A stretch of DNA of 32,888 nucleotides from positions 1 through 32,888 of the forward strand of contig JACPQY010000042.1 of assembly GCA_016190245.1 (NCBI GenBank), written 5' to 3'. The position numbers and the translations under genes were made by a program. Below the pieces are notes generated by a model, which saw nothing but the letters and a program-made list of their open reading frames with translations, was not told where the DNA came from and ran no database searches. Below, in pieces: positions 14,227 to 29,761 of the stretch (within the stretch, counting starts at the first letter, position 1; every line of letters begins with the position of its first letter). Source of the stretch: Nitrospirota bacterium (GTDB lineage Bacteria; JACPQY01).

Positions 14227-16215
14227 ATGGCCGAAAACCTCGTGGTGGTGGAGTCTCCCACCAAGGCCCGGACGCTGAAGAAATACCTTGGCGAGAAATA
14301 CGCCGTGAAGGCCTCCATGGGCCACGTCATCGATCTGCCCAAGTCCCAGTTCGGCGTGGACGTGGAGGACTCGTTCCGCCCCCGCTACATCATCGTCAAG
14401 GGCAAGGGGAAAGTGCTCAAGGAGATCAAGATCGCGGCGAAAAGGGCCAAGCGCGTGTACCTGGCCTCAGACCCCGACCGGGAGGGCGAGGCCATCGCCT
14501 GGCACATCGCGGGCGCGATCCGCGCCCTCAACGGGGCCACCCTCCATCGCGTGATCCTCCACGAGATCACGGCCAAGAAAGTCAAAGAGGCCATCGAGAA
14601 ACCCGTCGAGCTGGACGAGCGCAAGTTCAACGCGCAGCAGGCGCGACGCATCCTGGACCGGGTTGTCGGCTACAAGCTCAGTCCCCTGCTCTGGAAAAAA
14701 GTGAAGAGGGGTCTCTCGGCCGGCCGGGTCCAGTCCGTGGCCGTGCGGATCATCGTGGACCGCGAGAAAGAGATCCGCGTGTTCGTCCCGATCGAGTACT
14801 GGTCGCTCACGGCCCTGCTCCGCGCCGCCTCGGCCCCCCCGTTCCGGGCCCGTCTGCGGGAACTCGACGGCGAGAAAGTGGCTTTCGGCAAGCCGGAGGC
14901 CGGAGAGCGAATACTGCTGCGGGACGAGATCGACGCGCTGAAGCGGCGTCTCGAGTCCGGAGCGACCTTCCGTGTGACGGACACGGAGTCCAAGGACATC
15001 CGCCGCCACCCACCCGCGCCGTTCATCACGAGCGAGCTCCAACGCGAAGCGGCGCGCAGGTACCATTACCCGGCCCGAAAGACGATGATGATCGCCCAGC
15101 AACTCTACGAAGGTATCCCGCTGGGGGATGAAGGCCCGGTCGGGCTCATCACCTACATGCGCACGGACTCCGTCCGTGTGTCCGAGGACGCGGTCAAGGA
15201 GGCACGGGCGTACATCGAGGAGACATTCAGCCCGACCTACCTGCCCGGCTCGCCCCGCTCGTTCCGGAACAAGAAGAACGCGCAAGACGCGCACGAGGCG
15301 ATCCGCCCCTCGGACGTGCGCCGGACGCCGGAGGCCATGGCCTCCTTCCTGAACGAGGAACAGCTCAACGTGTACCGGATCGTCTGGCAGCGCATGCTCG
15401 CGTCGCAGATGGCGGAAGCCGTGATCGCCCAGACCCGCGTGGATGCGCAGGCGGACCTCCCGGCGGATGGCGCGCAGCCCCGCAAGGCCCTTTTCCGCGC
15501 CACGGGGAGCACGCTCAAGTTCGACGGCTTCATGACCCTCTACCGCGAGAGCCAGGACGAAGACGAAACCTCGGAGGACGAGACCGACCTCCCGGCCGTT
15601 CGCGCCGGTGAGCCCCTCACCCTCACCGAGCTCGAGGAACGCCAACACTTCACCCAGCCCCCCCCCCGGTACTCCGAGAGCAGCCTCATCAAGGAGTTGG
15701 AGGACAAGGGCATCGGCCGCCCCTCCACGTATGCCATGATTATCTCAACCATCCAGAACCGCGGCTACGTCTACAAGCTAAGGGGGCGCTTCATCCCCAG
15801 CCCGCTGGGCGAGCTCATCACGGACATGTTGACGGCCAGTTTCCCGGAGGTGCTGGACGTCCAGTTCACCGCCGAAATGGAGGAGCAGCTCGATCGGATC
15901 GAGGAGGGGGAAGCCGACTGGGTGCAGACGCTCGAGACCTTCTACCGCCGTTTCGAGAAAGCCCTGGAGCGCGCCGCCGTTGAAATGAAAACCGTCAGGG
16001 GAGTCGTGGAAAAAGTGGGGCGGGCCTGTCCCAAGTGCACCAAGGATCTCGTGTTCCGTTTCGGTCCTAGGGGCCGGTTCATCGCGTGCTCGGGATTTCC
16101 CGAGTGCCGCCATACCGAGAGCCTTCCGCCGGAGGCGACTGAGGCCAAGCCCCCGGAGGGATCGGATGTCAAGGAGGAGAAAGGGGGTTCCGATGTGGTG
16201 GGCGTATCTGGCTAA
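14227..16215 (+). CDS. topA: DNA topoisomerase I (type IA)
   Basis: Relaxes negative supercoils by single-strand passage. The 662-residue protein has the TOPRIM domain at residues 1-120 (NLVVVESPTKARTLKKYLG; acidic cluster ASDPDREGEAIAWH). The catalytic tyrosine is Tyr310 in GLITYMRTDS. RFNA-like KFNAQQARRILDRVVGYKLSPLLWKK and the IGRPSTYA motif are also present. Only one C-terminal zinc-finger module is seen (CPKC ... CSGFPEC, from Cys601), whereas many TopA proteins have several; this makes it shorter than the E. coli enzyme. GAAGAG precedes ATG 14227. Its end overlaps the next gene by 23 nt. Confidence 0.96.
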   Translation: MAENLVVVESPTKARTLKKYLGEKYAVKASMGHVIDLPKSQFGVDVEDSFRPRYIIVKGKGKVLKEIKIAAKRAKRVYLASDPDREGEAIAWHIAGAIRALNGATLHRVILHEITAKKVKEAIEKPVELDERKFNAQQARRILDRVVGYKLSPLLWKKVKRGLSAGRVQSVAVRIIVDREKEIRVFVPIEYWSLTALLRAASAPPFRARLRELDGEKVAFGKPEAGERILLRDEIDALKRRLESGATFRVTDTESKDIRRHPPAPFITSELQREAARRYHYPARKTMMIAQQLYEGIPLGDEGPVGLITYMRTDSVRVSEDAVKEARAYIEETFSPTYLPGSPRSFRNKKNAQDAHEAIRPSDVRRTPEAMASFLNEEQLNVYRIVWQRMLASQMAEAVIAQTRVDAQADLPADGAQPRKALFRATGSTLKFDGFMTLYRESQDEDETSEDETDLPAVRAGEPLTLTELEERQHFTQPPPRYSESSLIKELEDKGIGRPSTYAMIISTIQNRGYVYKLRGRFIPSPLGELITDMLTASFPEVLDVQFTAEMEEQLDRIEEGEADWVQTLETFYRRFEKALERAAVEMKTVRGVVEKVGRACPKCTKDLVFRFGPRGRFIACSGFPECRHTESLPPEATEAKPPEGSDVKEEKGGSDVVGVSG

Positions 16216-16809: not shown

Positions 16810-18159
16810 ATGACCGCCGAGGCATCCCACGAGCTCACCGTTGTCGGCGGCGGCCTGGCCGGAAGCGAAGCGGCGTGGCAGGCGGCACAACTGGGCGTCC
16901 GCGTTCGGCTCTGCGAGATGCGTCCCGCCAACCGTTCCCCCGTTCACGTCACCGACAGCCTCGCGGAGCTCGTATGTTCCAATTCCTTCAAAGCGAAGTC
17001 GCTCGAGAACGGCCCCGGCCTCCTCAAGGAGGAAATGATCCTCCTCGACTCGCTCATCCTCGATTCGGCGCTGAAGAACGAGGTCCCGGCGGGCGCCGCC
17101 CTGGCGGTGGACCGCAACCGGTTCGCGGAAACGATCACACAACGGGTCGCGTCACACCCGAACATCGAGCTGGTGCGCGAAGAGATCAAGACCTTGCCAC
17201 CCGGACCCGTCATCATCGCGACGGGACCGCTCACCTCGCCCGACATGACCGAGATCCTGATCCGCCTGACGCAGGGCAAGTTCCTCTACTTCTTCGACGC
17301 GATCTCGCCGATCGTGGAGACCCCCTCCATCAACATGGAAAAGTGTTTCAAGGCATCCCGATGGCAGCAGGGCGAGGGCGACTACATCAACTGCCCGATG
17401 ACGAAGGAAGAGTACTACGCATTCATCGACACGCTGCTCAAGGCGGAGGCCGTCCCCCTCAAGCCCTTCGAGAAACCCCTCTACTTCGAGGGATGCCTCC
17501 CGATCGAGGAGATGGCCCGCCGGGGGCCGGACACGCTCGCCTTCGGCCCGATGAAGCCCGTGGGCCTCATGGACCCGCACACGGGGCATCGGCCCTTCGC
17601 CGTGGTGCAACTCCGGCCCGAGGACCCGTACGGCCAGCTCCACAACATCGTCGGCTTCCAGACGAAGCTGAAATATCCGGAACAGACCCGCGTGTTCCGC
17701 ACCATCCCGGGGCTGGAGGGCGCGCAGTTCGCCCGTCATGGCAGCGTCCACCGCAACACGTTCATCAACTCGCCCCTCGTCCTGAAACCCCACCTCGAGC
17801 TGCGCGGCAAGGCCGGCGTCTTCGTGGCGGGACAACTCGTAGGCGTTGAAGGTTACATCGAGTCGGCTGCCATGGGCCTCATCGCCGGCATCAACGCGGC
17901 GCGTCTCCTCCGGAACGATCCCCCGGCCGTTCCACCGCCCACCACCGCGATCGGCGCGCTCATCCAGTACATCACGACGTCCGACCCCAAGCATTTCCAG
18001 CCCATGAACATCAACTACGGACTGCTGCCGCCCCTGTTCGAATCGAGCGGCAAGCGCCACCTGCACCGGCGCGAGATCGCCGACCGCGCGCTGGAGCACA
18101 TGAAAATCTGGAAGAATCAGACTTTGCCCGAACGACAGCCTGAATCGAAGGCGGTGTAG
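16810..18159 (+). CDS. trmFO: Folate/FAD-dependent tRNA (m5U54) methyltransferase
   Basis: Makes 5-methyluridine at position 54 of the tRNA T-loop, using methylenetetrahydrofolate and FAD. The 449-residue product has the FAD-binding opening (LTVVGGGLAGSEAAWQAAQLG) and GidA-like motifs. TrmFO-specific segments include LVCSNSFKAKSLENGPGLLKEEM, VPAGAALAVDRNRFAETIT, YFFDAISPIVE, GQLVGVEGYIESAAMGL and the C-terminal MNINYGLLPPL. Full length. It is the first enzyme of the pathway whose later steps (TtuA/TtuB, with TrmI) are encoded in the operon at 26.9-29.8 kb. No clear ribosome site; start ATG 16810 agrees with the family. Confidence 0.95.
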   Translation: MTAEASHELTVVGGGLAGSEAAWQAAQLGVRVRLCEMRPANRSPVHVTDSLAELVCSNSFKAKSLENGPGLLKEEMILLDSLILDSALKNEVPAGAALAVDRNRFAETITQRVASHPNIELVREEIKTLPPGPVIIATGPLTSPDMTEILIRLTQGKFLYFFDAISPIVETPSINMEKCFKASRWQQGEGDYINCPMTKEEYYAFIDTLLKAEAVPLKPFEKPLYFEGCLPIEEMARRGPDTLAFGPMKPVGLMDPHTGHRPFAVVQLRPEDPYGQLHNIVGFQTKLKYPEQTRVFRTIPGLEGAQFARHGSVHRNTFINSPLVLKPHLELRGKAGVFVAGQLVGVEGYIESAAMGLIAGINAARLLRNDPPAVPPPTTAIGALIQYITTSDPKHFQPMNINYGLLPPLFESSGKRHLHRREIADRALEHMKIWKNQTLPERQPESKAV

Positions 18160-25412: not shown

Positions 25413-26920
25413 CTGGGAGGTCCTCCGGGCACAAGGCCCTTGCAGGCCATTTCGAGGGCCCGTCGGACACCAAGGGCCTTGCTCTCCGTTTCGTGGAACT
25501 CGCGATCCGGCTGCGAATCGGCCACGATGCCCGCCCCGGCCTGGATGTAGTAGCGTCCGGCGCGATGGAGAAGCGTGCGGATGGTGATGCACATGTCCAT
25601 GGCTCCCGAGAAGCTGAAGTAGCCGACGCTTCCAGCGTAGAAGCCTCGCCGCGTGGGCTCGAGCTCTTCGATAATTTCCATGGCCCTCACCTTCGGGGCG
25701 CCGCTCACGGTGCCGGCGGGAAAGCACGCGGAAAAGGCATCGTAGCCGTCACGTCCGTCCGCCAGCTTGCCCTGCACGCTCGTGACGAGGTGCATGACGG
25801 TGGAATAGCGCTCGACGCTCATGAGGTCCGACACGGCCACGCTGCCTTGGGCGGCCACGCGTCCCACATCGTTGCGCCCGAGGTCCACCAGCATGATGTG
25901 TTCCGCCTTCTCCTTTGGGTCCGACCTGAGCTCTTCCTCCAGCCGCGCGTCCTCCACGACGCTCCTCCCGCGGGGTCGTGTGCCGGCGATCGGCCGAGCG
26001 ACCACCGACTCCCCTTCGACCCGCACGAGGATCTCGGGCGAAGAGCCGATCAGCCTGAGGTCGCCGAAGTTGAGATAGAACATGTAGGGCGAGGGATTGG
26101 TCATTCGGAGTGCACGGTAGACGGTGTACGGATCCACGGGCGAACGGAACTCGAACCGGCGCGAGAGGACGACCTGGATGGCGTCGCCCTGCACGATGTA
26201 CTCCTTGGCCCGCTTCACGATCCGCTCGAACTCGGGCCGAGCCATGTTCACGCGCGGCTCGGCCAGCCGGGCCGTCCGTGCCCGCCCCGGACCGCGGCCA
26301 ACCTCGAGACGCCGGCGCAGGCGCTGAAGAGTTCGGAGGGCGGCGGCATAGAGGGCGGACGGCCGCGCCCCATCGCGGACGGCCACGTTCACGAGCAGCG
26401 TGGCGCGCTGGCGAAACCGGTCGAACACGACCACCGGCCCGCCCACGAAGAAATAGGCATCGGGCACGCGAAGGTCGTCCCGCGTTCGATCCGGGAGCCG
26501 CTCGAGGTGGCGGACCACGTCGTACGAGAAGAAACCGACGGCTCCTCCAGTGAAACGGGGCAAACCGATGTGGGGGGCCTGCCGGAGCCCCTGCATCTGC
26601 TTTCTCAGCGCATCCAAAGGCGATCCCTCGATCCTCCGCTGCGTCCGACCGTCCGAAATCTCCGTTGAGCCGCCCGCGCTCCTGAGAAGGAGCGACGGCT
26701 CAAGCCCGATGATGCTGTAGCGTCCCCACTGTTCCTCTCCCTCGACGCTCTCGAGCAGGTAGCCCGGCGCATCGCCCACCAGCCGCTGATAGGCTGCGAC
26801 GGGGGTCTCCAGGTCAGCCACGATCTCCTGCCAGACCGGCACGACCGTGAACTCCGCCGCGAGCCGCGCGAACTCCTTCTCCCCCGGCTGGATGAAGGGG
26901 GTCAGGTCTTGACTTGACAC
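25409..26920 (-). CDS. trpE: Anthranilate synthase component I
   Basis: Converts chorismate and ammonia to anthranilate. The 503-residue protein has the N-terminal regulatory part (VVPVWQEIVADLETPVAAYQRL, then YLLESVEGEEQWGRYSIIG with the LLES tryptophan-binding motif) and the chorismate-binding domain: PIAGTRPRG, EKAEHIMLVDLGRNDVGRV, FPAGTVSGAPKVRAMEII and YIQAGAGIVADS. Feedback inhibition by tryptophan is therefore likely. Start GTG 26920 has AAGGAG 8 nt upstream. The start codon and first eight codons (VSSQDLTP) come from a palindromic element (26897-26984); normal homology begins at PGEKEF. It overlaps ttuA by 19 nt and trpG by 4 nt. Confidence 0.95.
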
Positions 26921-26984
26921 ACCACCGCTCCTTGTCCCTCCACCGACCTCGCCCCCACCTGCGTCAAGGCAAGACCTGACCCCC
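26897..26984. mobile_element. 88-bp palindromic element (REP/MITE-like) at the ttuA-trpE junction
   Basis: Inverted terminal arms at 26897-26918 and 26963-26984 match over 22 bp with one mismatch; the outer 15 bp (GGGGGTCAGGTCTTG and its complement) are perfect. The motif GTCAAGACCTGACCCC is a familiar short repeat associated with REP-type transposase loci in environmental genomes (recollection, not searched). The element lies wholly within coding sequence. It encodes the last 28 residues and stop of the ttuA product on one frame and the start of trpE on another. Confidence 0.75.
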
Positions 26985-27960
26985 GGGCGAGGGTTGCCGC
27001 ACGGAGGCGGCAGAAGGCACACACTTCGACCGGCGATGGGGATCCACATTCCCGGCACGGTTTCATCGCGGGCGGCGCAGGCGCCGGCAACCGGTCCTTG
27101 GCGCTCAGAAAGTTCGCGAGAAAAGCCCGCTTGGTCCCCGGGGACTCGTGCTCCAGGCGATTGATCACGTCCTTGTGCTCAAGGGATGTGGCACCCAAGG
27201 CAAAGGGACATTCCTCGCGGATGTACGGAACACCCTCCAAGACCGCGTAGAGCGCCGTTTCCTTCTCGGAAAAGAAACAGAACGGCTTCACCTTGCGGGC
27301 AAACCCTTCCGCCGCGGGCAAGACGGGCGTCTGGCGCGCGAGGTAGTCCATATCCCACCGAAGCGTGTTGGAGAAAAGCGTGGCCGCCTCGTCATCGAGA
27401 TTGTGCCCCGTGGCGAGGCCGTCATAGCCCCGCTCGACCGCCACCTTGTTCATGTAATGCCGTTTCGTTGTCCCGCATGGCGAGCAGGCAGGCCGATGCA
27501 CGGCCCGTTGGATCTCGGGGATGCCGAACCCCATCGTTTCCTGGAGATCCACAACGATGAGCTCGCGGCCGGAGCGGTCGGCATACGCGCGGGCAAACTC
27601 GAGGGAGCGCTGGGAGTAAGCCAAGCCGTCCGATCCCTGAATCCTCAGATGAATGTACAAGCCGTCCGCCACGTAGCCCAGCTGCAGGAGGGCGTGCCAC
27701 AGGCCCAAGCTGTCCTTGCCGCCGGAGACGGCCACAAGGATGCGGTCGGTCTTTCCGAACATGTGGAAACGTTCGATCGTGCGCTGCGTCTGCTTCTCGA
27801 ACCAAGGGGGGTAGCACGCGCGGCACAGGGCCAGCCGGTGCTGAGGCATGTGGATCACGGCCTTTCCACCGCAGGGCTTGCACCGGCGGTATGACTTGGG
27901 CGCGCCTTCCTCGGCCCGCCCACGCCCGCCGGTACAGGGCCGTCCTGGCCCGCACTTCAC
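26902..27960 (-). CDS. ttuA: TtuA/Ncs6-type tRNA 2-thiolation enzyme
   Basis: ATP-dependent enzyme that replaces the C2 oxygen of a tRNA uridine by sulfur taken from a ubiquitin-like carrier. The 352-residue protein has an N-terminal zinc finger (Cys27, Cys30, Cys46, Cys49), the PP-loop SGGKDS (79-84), and GHNLDDEAATLFSN. Three cysteines are placed like the TtuA [4Fe-4S] ligands: Cys159 and Cys162 (CSPCG) and Cys251 (EECPFA). A C-terminal zinc finger follows (CRECG ... CAFC). TtuA thiolates m5U54; relatives Ncs6/CTU1 act on U34. Start GTG 27960 forms a GTGA overlap with the ttuB::radC gene. The C-terminal tail is encoded by the palindromic element. Confidence 0.87.
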   Translation of the reverse strand: MKCGPGRPCTGGRGRAEEGAPKSYRRCKPCGGKAVIHMPQHRLALCRACYPPWFEKQTQRTIERFHMFGKTDRILVAVSGGKDSLGLWHALLQLGYVADGLYIHLRIQGSDGLAYSQRSLEFARAYADRSGRELIVVDLQETMGFGIPEIQRAVHRPACSPCGTTKRHYMNKVAVERGYDGLATGHNLDDEAATLFSNTLRWDMDYLARQTPVLPAAEGFARKVKPFCFFSEKETALYAVLEGVPYIREECPFALGATSLEHKDVINRLEHESPGTKRAFLANFLSAKDRLPAPAPPAMKPCRECGSPSPVEVCAFCRLRAATLARGSGLALTQVGARSVEGQGAVVCQVKT

Positions 27961-28925
27961 GGCTGGGCCACCTTGCGGCGCCGGTCGTCGATCCGCCCCG
28001 GCGCCTCTCGCCGCATCGCATCGATCCGGCCGGCGTCCGCGAAGCTGTAGTGATCCGCCCCGCCGACAATCACGTGGTCCAGGACGCAAAGGTTCATGAT
28101 CTCCCCGCCCCAGACCATCTCGCGGGTGAATTGCTCATCCTCCGCGCTCGGCGTGGGATCACCTGAGGGATGGTTGTGCACGAGGATGAGCGCCGCCGCC
28201 TGGCGCCGGAGACCGCATTCGAACACTTCGCGCGAGAATGCGGCGCTGCGATTGACCGTCCCGCGGCTCACGCGCTCCCGTGCCAGGAGCTTGTTCCGCG
28301 TATTGAGCAAGAGAACGTCCAGCACCTCTTTCCTGAGGTCCTTGAGCAGCGGCCCGGCCAGGTGGGCCACGTCCGCCGAACTTCGGATCACGACGGCGGG
28401 CGAGGCCGGAAGGGCGTTCACGCGCCGCCCGAGTTCGAGGGCGGCGAGGATCTGGGCAACCTTGGCCGTCCCGACGCCCTTGATGCGGCGCAGCTTGTCC
28501 GGGTCCGAACGAACCATCTTTCCCAGGCCGCCGGCCAAGCGGAGGAGCCGCCGCGCGAGATCAATGGCGCTCGTGCCGCGGGCACCGGTCCTGAGGAGAA
28601 TCGCGATCAACTCGGGATCCGTGAGGGATTCGGCTCCGGCTTGGATCAATTTCTCACGGGGCCGCTCGGCCTCGGGCCACTCGCGGATCGGCACGTGATA
28701 GGCCGCCGCGTCAGAAGGAGCGGAGGGCGGGCCGTCGCTCCCGCCGGAAATCGCCTTGATGATCTCCACCTCGTCCTGCGGCCCCACCATCTCGTCTTCG
28801 GTCACCACCTCACCGTTCTTCGCGACGAGCACCACCTCCGGTAAAAGTTCCAAACGCTTCAGCAGGTCCCGTACGCGCATCTTCCCCTCGACATCCTGGA
28901 TTGCCCCACCCACCTTCACTCGCAT
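27957..28925 (-). CDS. Fusion of a TtuB-like ubiquitin-fold sulfur carrier with RadC (JAMM domain)
   Basis: A 322-residue protein in one uninterrupted frame. Residues 1-62 form a ThiS/MoaD/TtuB-type beta-grasp domain (VRDLLKRLELLPEVVLVAKNGEVVTEDE ... VEIIKAISGG) that ends in Gly61-Gly62; TtuB proteins end with the same AISGG. A short Pro/Ser/Ala linker follows. Residues 78-322 are full-length RadC: IREWPEAERPREKLIQAGAESLTD, the helix-hairpin-helix RRIKGVGTAKVAQILAALELG, and a complete JAMM metal site (Glu233; His250-x-His252-x7-Ser260-x2-Asp263). GGAGG precedes ATG 28925. The gene overlaps trmI by 10 nt and ttuA by 4 nt. The carrier presumably serves TtuA. The JAMM domain could expose the Gly-Gly end by cleavage or remove carrier from targets. 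That role is inference; RadC has no agreed function. Confidence 0.88.
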   Translation of the reverse strand: MRVKVGGAIQDVEGKMRVRDLLKRLELLPEVVLVAKNGEVVTEDEMVGPQDEVEIIKAISGGSDGPPSAPSDAAAYHVPIREWPEAERPREKLIQAGAESLTDPELIAILLRTGARGTSAIDLARRLLRLAGGLGKMVRSDPDKLRRIKGVGTAKVAQILAALELGRRVNALPASPAVVIRSSADVAHLAGPLLKDLRKEVLDVLLLNTRNKLLARERVSRGTVNRSAAFSREVFECGLRRQAAALILVHNHPSGDPTPSAEDEQFTREMVWGGEIMNLCVLDHVIVGGADHYSFADAGRIDAMRREAPGRIDDRRRKVAQP

Positions 28926-29761
28926 GTCGCATCCCCCTCCAATCCCTCCGCCTTCGGCTCCTCCGCGGTAGAGGAAGCCTCCTCGCATCGAACCAGCCTC
29001 TCGTTCGACTTCCGCCCGAACGTGAGAAACCCCGTGTGCCCCACCATCCGCTCGAACGGCCGCGTGCGGCCGCTGCGCGCCAGGATCGTGCGCGTCAACA
29101 CCTCGATCGTCTCCAAGAAGACGAACCCACCCTCCTCGAGCGCAATGGCCGCCCGCTCCACCTGGTTGTAGGTGGGCGAAAGACTCACCCACCGGCCGCC
29201 GCCCTTGAGACTCTCGTAGACGGGGCCGACCACCGTCCACGGCTCCGGGATGTCCACCACGGCAACGTCCACCTCCCGCTCGTCGTAGCGATCCGGCTCG
29301 TTCGCCGGCTTGAACTCGATTGTGTTCGTCATGCCCATCCAGCGCAGGTTGTCGCGCGCCTTCTCGAGGCGCTCCGCCACGCGGTCGTATGCGAACACTC
29401 TTCCCGCCTCCCCGACTGCATTAGCGAGAGCGAGGGTGAGCGCCCCCGTGCCCGACCCCACCTCGAGCACGCGGTAGCCCTCGCGAAGTCCGGTCTTCAG
29501 AACGATCATGGCCGCCTCTTTGGGGTAGATGATCTGGGTGCGGCGCTGGATCTTCATCATGACATCTTCGAGAGTCGGTTCGAGGAGCACCACGGGCTCG
29601 CCGGTGTGCGTGCGGATCACGTCGCCGTACGATCTTCCGATCACCTCGTCAATCGCGATGATCCCCTTGTGCGTGTGGAACTTCTCCCCCGGTCGGACGA
29701 TCTTGAGATACGTCCTTCGTCCGGGCAGAAGAAAGAGAACCGGTGAGTCGGCCTGGATCAT
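28916..29761 (-). CDS. trmI: tRNA (adenine-N1-)-methyltransferase, m1A58
   Basis: Methylates N1 of A58 in the T-loop using S-adenosylmethionine; the enzyme is a homotetramer. The 281-residue protein has the N-terminal beta-domain (TYLKIVRPGEKFHTHKGIIAIDEVIG, GRSYGDVIRTHTG), the linker QRRTQIIYPKEAAMI, the Rossmann motif VLEVGSGTGALTLALA, and motif IV VAVVDIPEPW, where TrmI/Trm61 proteins have a D-x-PxPW pattern. The C-terminal tail (EEPKAEGLEGDATCE) is variable. It is the first gene of the overlapping operon. In Thermus, m1A58 promotes 2-thiolation of m5U54, which gives a functional reason for sitting beside ttuB and ttuA. No clear ribosome site before ATG 29761. Confidence 0.93.
   Translation of the reverse strand: MIQADSPVLFLLPGRRTYLKIVRPGEKFHTHKGIIAIDEVIGRSYGDVIRTHTGEPVVLLEPTLEDVMMKIQRRTQIIYPKEAAMIVLKTGLREGYRVLEVGSGTGALTLALANAVGEAGRVFAYDRVAERLEKARDNLRWMGMTNTIEFKPANEPDRYDEREVDVAVVDIPEPWTVVGPVYESLKGGGRWVSLSPTYNQVERAAIALEEGGFVFLETIEVLTRTILARSGRTRPFERMVGHTGFLTFGRKSNERLVRCEEASSTAEEPKAEGLEGDATCE

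Follow-up and report, generated by a model that had tools for sequence, protein, structure and literature searches.

Analysis of a 32,888-nucleotide stretch of DNA from a Nitrospirota bacterium (the window) revealed a ubiquitin-like (Ubl) sulfur carrier of the TtuB type encoded in frame with a complete RadC protein, in what is very probably an operon for tRNA T-loop modification. The Gly-Gly of the carrier lies at residues 61-62 of a 322-residue product, and in both genomes found to carry the fusion the reading frame runs on into RadC. The Gly-Gly is not at the C-terminus of the protein, and the encoded carrier is pro-TtuB, not TtuB. The earlier note on this DNA had only named the fusion; its buried Gly-Gly, the most informative feature of the locus, implies proteolysis, and the nature of the partner suggests that RadC may free ubiquitin-like proteins by cutting.

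Table 1. Positions of the T-loop modification genes and of the parts of the fusion gene in the window
Feature	Position	Strand	Description
trmI	28916-29761	minus	tRNA m1A58 methyltransferase, 281 aa
ttuB::radC	27957-28925	minus	fusion gene, ATG at 28925, 322 aa
ttuA	26902-27960	minus	GTG start, 352 aa; predicted tRNA U54 2-sulfurtransferase
trmFO	16810-18159	plus	m5U54 methyltransferase; NF003739 1.9e-192; downstream of topA
topA	14227-16215		Pfam
Ubiquitin-like (TtuB/ThiS) domain, residues 1-62	28740-28925	minus	ThiS 5.8e-10
Gly61-Gly62 codons	28740-28745	minus	predicted cleavage point; C-terminus of free TtuB/SAMP2/ThiS
Linker, residues 63-79	28689-28739	minus	pN/pS ~1.0; 11 aa longer in the sister genome
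RadC N-terminal helical (HhH) domain, residues 80-157	28455-28688	minus	UPF0758_N 3.5e-27
RadC JAB/JAMM domain, residues 180-299	28029-28388	minus	Pfam RadC 1.3e-36
JAMM motif H250-N-H252-P...S260-x2-D263	28137-28178	minus	Glu200 codon at 28326-28328

The three genes lie on the same strand, the stop of trmI overlapping the ATG of the fusion gene by 10 nt and the stop of the fusion overlapping the GTG of ttuA by 4 nt (GTGA). This arrangement and the presence of trmFO in the window, both claimed in the earlier note, were confirmed (Table 1). The trmI product has both its catalytic and its N-terminal part (Pfam GCD14, 1.9e-32; TrmI-like_N, 3.2e-7); its top match in PDB is 1o54 (3.1e-53), and the TrmI structures 5c1i and 5c0o match at ~3e-31.

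The ttuA product combines the TtuA_LIM_N and PP-loop domains and matches Thermus TtuA in PDB at 8.5e-88, as against 1.3e-28 for NcsA. Profile scores follow the same order, with NF049949 (5.5e-80) ahead of NcsA (1.3e-28) and TtcA (3e-18); the NF049949 match falls below the 450-bit cut-off of that model, which is named for Pyrococcus. Aligned to the TtuA chain of 5gha, the protein retains the PP-loop (S79GGKDS84) and the Fe-S cysteines (Cys159, Cys162 and Cys251), and it has zinc-finger cysteines at both its N-terminus (Cys27/30/46/49) and its C-terminus (Cys302/305/314/317). All of these are identical in the sister genome described below, where a stretch of ~24 residues at the N-terminus has no counterpart. 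On the profile and PDB scores, an assignment to Ncs6/NcsA (U34) or TtcA (C32) was rejected; they are in agreement with the earlier assignment of the thiolase as TtuA-like and support an enzyme of the U54 type, predicted to make s2U54.

Similar clusters recur elsewhere. Among 38 TtuA loci from other lineages, ttuB directly adjoins ttuA in 24, and trmI adjoins the ttuB-ttuA pair in seven. One genome (G349) has the identical order trmI-ttuB-ttuA, with a TtuB of 62 aa that ends at Gly-Gly; the fused Ubl domain thus takes the place that free ttuB has at such loci. These clusters, together with the stimulation of TtuA by m1A58 in Thermus (PMC6418473), favor the T-loop operon proposed in the earlier note. 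Its hint at a thermophilic or formerly thermophilic host found no support: the 16S G+C of the sister genome is 57%, and composition-based temperature estimates conflict (~57 C for the window proteins versus ~30 C for a few proteins of the sister genome). Proximity of radC to ttuA was also seen in two other genomes of one family (G011 and G159, radC-hldE-ttuA) and was set aside, one event in 38 loci being within chance.

Pfam recognizes three domains in the fusion protein, ThiS (residues 8-62), UPF0758_N and the RadC JAB domain. Both its sequence and its modelled fold place the Ubl domain nearest to carriers of the TtuB type: it matches TtuB 5ztb_E at 5.5e-4 by sequence, and its structure model (pLDDT ~94) aligns with the TtuB chains 5gha_H and 5ztb_E at Z-scores of 9.8 and 9.7. 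The phmmer alignments to Ubl structures stop at fusion residue 62, and standalone relatives of the domain, such as that of G349, terminate exactly at ...AISGG. Directly after the Ubl domain, residues 60-102 are predicted to be disordered (pLDDT <50), and with a pTM of 0.56 the modelled inter-domain geometry was left uninterpreted.

The remainder of the protein resembles other bacterial RadC (UPF0758), with full N-terminal and JAMM domains and all catalytic residues, but no other bacterial RadC examined has an N-terminal Ubl. The model of the JAMM domain superimposes on the RadC structure 2qlc with a Z-score of 21.1 (1.8 A over 126 residues). The metal site EXnHxHx7Sx2D is complete (E200, H250, H252, S260 and D263), and none of these residues differs in the sister genome or in any of the 75 other RadC proteins that have a letter at these columns. 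The fused RadC keeps 57 of the 69 conserved RadC columns, four departures being common to both fusions, and by this comparison shows little sign of specialisation.

The only other genome of this phylum-level lineage in our sample (G001, the sister of the source genome G000) carries the same fusion and operon. The three genes are 61-70% identical between the two genomes, and the fusion (L006:1495-2469 in the sister genome) is 61% identical; trpE is the next gene at both loci. Because the sister genome has the same three genes, the same fusion and the same 4-nt overlap into ttuA, the arrangement is not due to chance. Synonymous sites of the fusion are near saturation, with the Ubl and JAMM domains constrained and the linker unconstrained. 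Both Gly61-Gly62 and the AISGG tail are kept in the sister genome.

These two genomes, from two genera, are the only ones found to carry the fusion. Matches to the fusion query, mostly to its RadC part, occur in 267 of 386 genomes sampled; no further Ubl fusion was found among the RadC of ~390 sampled genomes, 78 RadC frames of which were searched with a Ubl profile. Two candidates (G234 and G084), whose matches start inside the Ubl region, were rejected after the profile recognized no Ubl. The RadC of phage contigs had no Ubl fusion, none of the RadC-containing records, 2314 from plasmids and 42 from phages, gave a match spanning 80% of the fusion query, and viral contigs searched with the RadC protein gave no match. 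The search of genome contigs with the Ubl domain recovered five free Ubls from other lineages, the best in Bacterium HR37; TtuA gave no match in these contigs.

The C-terminal glycine of TtuB is required for sulfur transfer (PMC3980101), and the fusion should therefore be cut after Gly62. The JAMM domain of RadC is the parsimonious protease, since the JAMM fold releases other Ubls. In Deinococcus radiodurans the JAMM protein DR0402 (DRJAMM) cleaves a linear MoaD-MoaE fusion and exposes its C-terminal glycine (PMC8832034); there too a fused sulfur carrier needs a JAMM, but a classical JAMM distinct from the fusion does the cutting, whereas here the fusion partner itself has the JAMM fold. Deletion of a JAMM in Thermus results in aberrant TtuB conjugates and ~50% less thiouridine (PMC3980101). 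The JAMM and Ubl domains of our fusion find their counterparts in the two members of the PfJAMM1-SAMP2 complex (5lda; JAMM model versus 5lda_A, Z 9.6, rmsd 3.4), although those are two separate proteins and the JAMM domains are only 14% identical. For the lambdoid phage tail protein TAPI, Ubl and JAB peptidase occur in a single chain in one E. coli prophage, where the JAB is proposed to release the Ubl; that protein, however, serves phage tail assembly rather than sulfur transfer, and RadC is absent from the report (PMC1779556). Cleavage after Gly62 by the RadC JAMM is also favored by the conserved internal Gly-Gly, the unconstrained linker between constrained domains, the predicted disorder directly after the Ubl and the intact JAMM residues; it is a tentative proposal, with a probability just short of even.

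In the proposed pathway, TrmI would make m1A58 and TrmFO m5U54, which TtuA would then 2-thiolate. TtuB would be translated as a pro-protein fused to RadC, whose zinc-peptidase domain is the most likely enzyme to cut behind Gly62, either in its own chain or in that of another molecule, so that TtuB is set free with Gly-Gly as its C-terminus. The freed TtuB would be converted into a thiocarboxylate by an E1 and a cysteine desulfurase, and TtuA would hand its sulfur to U54. Released RadC may also strip TtuB off proteins, by analogy with the JAMM of another subfamily in Thermus. A T-loop operon with pro-TtuB cut by RadC is the best explanation of the locus as a whole, and we give it an even chance. 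Its enzymes, the TtuA catalytic residues and the carrier fold resemble the TrmFO/TtuA-TtuB-TtuC-TtuD/TrmI system of Thermus thermophilus (m5s2U54, m1A58), but in that species TtuB is a small protein of its own, its C-terminal glycine free, and our literature search found no described link of RadC to the Thermus pathway.

As to the partners, the earlier note had reported the E1-like activator (TtuC) as missing from the window. No ThiF-family E1 was found in the source genome either, but that genome is 84.8% complete and the sister genome encodes a rhodanese::E1 protein (7.7e-89); the absence probably reflects the ~85% completeness. Class-V aminotransferases of the IscS/SufS superfamily were found in both genomes.

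Counting against cleavage by RadC are the restriction of the fusion to two genomes, the little specialisation of its RadC, a literature search that found no biochemical activity of RadC, the argument of Iyer et al. given below, and a classical JAMM in the sister genome that could act in trans. This standalone Prok-JAB protein (L160:1474-1902; 142 aa, 2.2e-22) has the full JAMM motif, and such enzymes cut linear Ubl fusions in trans (PMC8832034). A different protease of this kind might cut after Gly62, RadC being a co-expressed passenger with an unrelated function of its own. We consider this a rather unlikely alternative: no standalone JAMM scored above the cut-off in the source genome (85% complete), and it leaves unexplained why the partner has the JAMM fold and has stayed in frame across two genera.

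Less probable still is a nucleic-acid target for RadC, in this case tRNA, with the Ubl tethering RadC to TtuA or tRNA and the fusion left uncut or cut incidentally. Iyer et al. argued from structure and context that RadC has no groove for the tail of ubiquitin and that nucleic acids may be what it processes (PMC5512222), RadC has a helix-hairpin-helix-like domain, and the fusion sits in a tRNA-modification operon. An uncut fusion, however, offers no C-terminal glycine for adenylation, and TtuA would then have to draw its sulfur from a different carrier; the Gly61-Gly62 pair is conserved all the same. In a further, quite improbable explanation, another Ubl of the genome serves TtuA, and the fused Ubl no longer carries sulfur but has a binding or regulatory role. 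The source genome encodes two other ThiS/MoaD-type domains, in a MoaD-NIL-like protein (L001) and a MobA::MoaD protein (L003), either of which could serve TtuA, and sulfur carriers are reported to be functionally redundant in Thermococcus kodakarensis (PMC11323500). Against this, the Gly-Gly and AISGG tail are retained in a domain closest to TtuB-type carriers that sits at the usual position of free ttuB. Finally, a lost stop or frameshift joining two genes in these draft assemblies of many contigs is ruled out, for practical purposes, by the sister genome, where the fusion recurs in another genus at 61% identity with synonymous sites near saturation, a linker of different length and no stops or shifts.

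RadC was listed as of unknown function in a 2003 study of JAMM proteins (PMC300881), and a 2025 review still calls for studies of RadC-like domains (PMC11981726). The protein is widespread in bacteria and has a complete zinc-peptidase site; the fusion supplies a concrete candidate substrate and makes its function directly testable. A broader idea, speculative and rather doubtful at present, is that RadC serves as a peptidase whose substrates are ubiquitin-like sulfur carriers, with the fusion a self-processing pro-TtuB and standalone RadC elsewhere in bacteria likewise processing proteins of the ThiS/MoaD/TtuB type or removing them. A failure of RadC to cut the fusion would also be informative about RadC. 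If RadC does cut it, a large orphan family would gain a function, and sulfur-carrier processing would gain a protease.

In the window, the ttuB::radC gene is a single reading frame of 322 codons that joins a TtuB-like ubiquitin-like domain (Ubl), a sulfur carrier, to RadC, a JAMM/JAB-fold protein. The structure matches of the carrier domain (TtuB, SAMP2 and other Ubl proteins) end at residue 62, the second glycine of a Gly-Gly. TtuB ends with this glycine, which bears the sulfur (PMC3980101), whereas in the fusion as encoded it is buried and the chain runs on into RadC.

Features of the operon region and domains of the fusion protein
Feature	Position	Strand	Remark
trmI	28916-29761	minus	
ttuB::radC	27957-28925	minus	
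ttuA	26902-27960	minus	GTG start
TrmFO	16810-18159		full-strength match, 1.9e-192; adjoins topA
TtuB/ThiS domain	residues 1-62		ThiS 5.8e-10
Short linker	between TtuB/ThiS domain and RadC		
RadC N-terminal helical domain	residues 80-157		RadC complete
RadC JAB domain	residues 180-299		

The gene positions and overlaps claimed by the earlier note are confirmed: 10 nt between trmI and the fusion and 4 nt (GTGA) between the fusion and ttuA, with trpE and trpG as the next genes. TrmFO likewise lies in the window as described. For TrmI, both GCD14/TrmI models and solved structures of the enzyme give matches. The thiolase scores 5.5e-80 with the U54 model versus 1.3e-28 with NcsA and 3e-18 with TtcA, and against the PDB 8.5e-88 with Thermus TtuA versus 1.3e-28 with NcsA. 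It keeps the PP-loop SGGKDS, Cys 159, 162 and 251 aligned with the Fe-S ligands, the zinc-finger cysteines and a lysine aligned with Thermus K137. The enzyme is therefore of the TtuA type, and the scores do not place it with Ncs6 or TtcA. The operon very probably has a T-loop role. In the sister genome G001, from another genus of the same family, TtuA carries a low-complexity insertion in its C-terminal zinc finger, between the two pairs of cysteines (L006:3330-3530).

The E1 activator that the earlier note reported missing is probably not missing. None is detectable in the window's genome at 85% completeness, but G001 has a rhodanese::E1 protein, and the window's genome lacks about 15% of its sequence and encodes other carriers that would likewise depend on an E1. 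As candidate cysteine desulfurases, both genomes have class-V aminotransferases, assigned at the SufS/IscS superfamily level only. A thermophilic host is not established. A second carrier with a buried Gly-Gly, a MoaD/CysO-like Ubl fused to an apparent NIL-type domain, lies downstream of a threonine-synthase-like gene on another contig of the window's genome (L001:1189-2004, C16); on a third, a MobA-like protein with a C-terminal MoaD fused (L003:526-1572, C82) is followed by MoaE (1834-2349).

The window's genome (84.8% complete) and G001 are the only sampled genomes of their phylum. Operon and fusion recur in G001, where the fusion gene again overlaps ttuA by 4 nt and trpE comes next. The two copies are close to saturated at synonymous sites (pS about 0.7); pN/pS indicates constraint on the Ubl (0.35) and JAMM (0.26) domains and none on the linker (about 1.0), which differs in length by 11 residues. 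Recent stop-codon loss or assembly error is thus ruled out as the origin of the fusion. The fusion shares E200, H250, H252, S260 and D263 with G001 and with every other RadC that has a residue aligned there.

In an AlphaFold2 model built from a 37-row alignment, pLDDT is about 94 for the Ubl, mostly above 92 for the JAMM domain and below 50 for residues 60-102. The modelled Ubl superposes on TtuB (Z 9.8, 1.4 A over 60 residues), and the JAMM domain on RadC 2qlc (Z 21.1, 1.8 A over 126), followed by JAMM-fold proteins, among them PfJAMM1 (Z 9.6, 3.4 A over 111). PfJAMM1 was solved in complex with SAMP2, which the Ubl matches, so each partner of that complex has a counterpart domain in the fusion.

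Because the carrier that serves TtuA must have its C-terminal glycine free, the fusion should be cut after Gly62. The cut may be made by the fused RadC domain, with its full JAMM site, at a Gly-Gly opening a disordered, unconstrained linker. A JAMM similarly cleaves a MoaD-MoaE fusion, exposing a C-terminal glycine (PMC8832034), and Thermus that has lost a JAMM shows disturbed TtuB conjugates and half the tRNA thiouridine (PMC3980101). We put release by RadC forward tentatively, at slightly under even chances. There are two chief doubts. A stand-alone classical JAMM peptidase of 142 aa in G001 (L160:1474-1902) could instead act on the fusion in trans. Alternatively, RadC may act on nucleic acid, as proposed by Iyer and colleagues, who argue that it has no tail groove (PMC5512222).

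Among 78 RadC frames of the sampled genomes, a Ubl profile matched the two fusions only, and no further match spanning both domains occurred in about 390 sampled genomes, phage contigs, 2314 plasmid records and 42 phage records with RadC. Operons of this kind and their enzymes are already known; what is new is the variant in which TtuB is fused to RadC. The open-access literature, to which the search was confined, yielded no description of this fusion, which may have been mentioned earlier in other papers. The closest described case, a tail gene of one prophage, likewise joins a Ubl to a JAB domain (PMC1779556).

We compared 38 TtuA loci of other lineages, together with several kb of flanking sequence wherever the contig was long enough. 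At L107:5177-8579 and L110:4342-7741, of one family (G011 and G159), the order is radC, hldE-like kinase, ttuA and mqnA-like gene, and no ttuB was found beside ttuA. At L119:719-5459 ttuA is apparently split: an N-terminal zinc-finger stretch adjoins ttuB and the remainder lies about 3.7 kb on, with an integrase-like gene between. A free ttuB directly adjoins ttuA in 24 of the 38, and trmI adjoins the pair at seven loci from three families; G349 has the identical order trmI-ttuB-ttuA, its 62-residue TtuB ending in AISGG. The window operon is thus a recurrent cluster type into which radC has been inserted, between ttuB and ttuA and fused to the former. Some free TtuBs beside ttuA extend past Gly-Gly, by about 22 residues (L114:6888-7232), about 17 (L130:5627-6007), about 7 (L112:5832-6047 and L115:6881-7096) and about 4 (L134:3810-4010). 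The buried Gly-Gly is therefore not unique to the lineage of the window, and these extended carriers too would need a peptidase.
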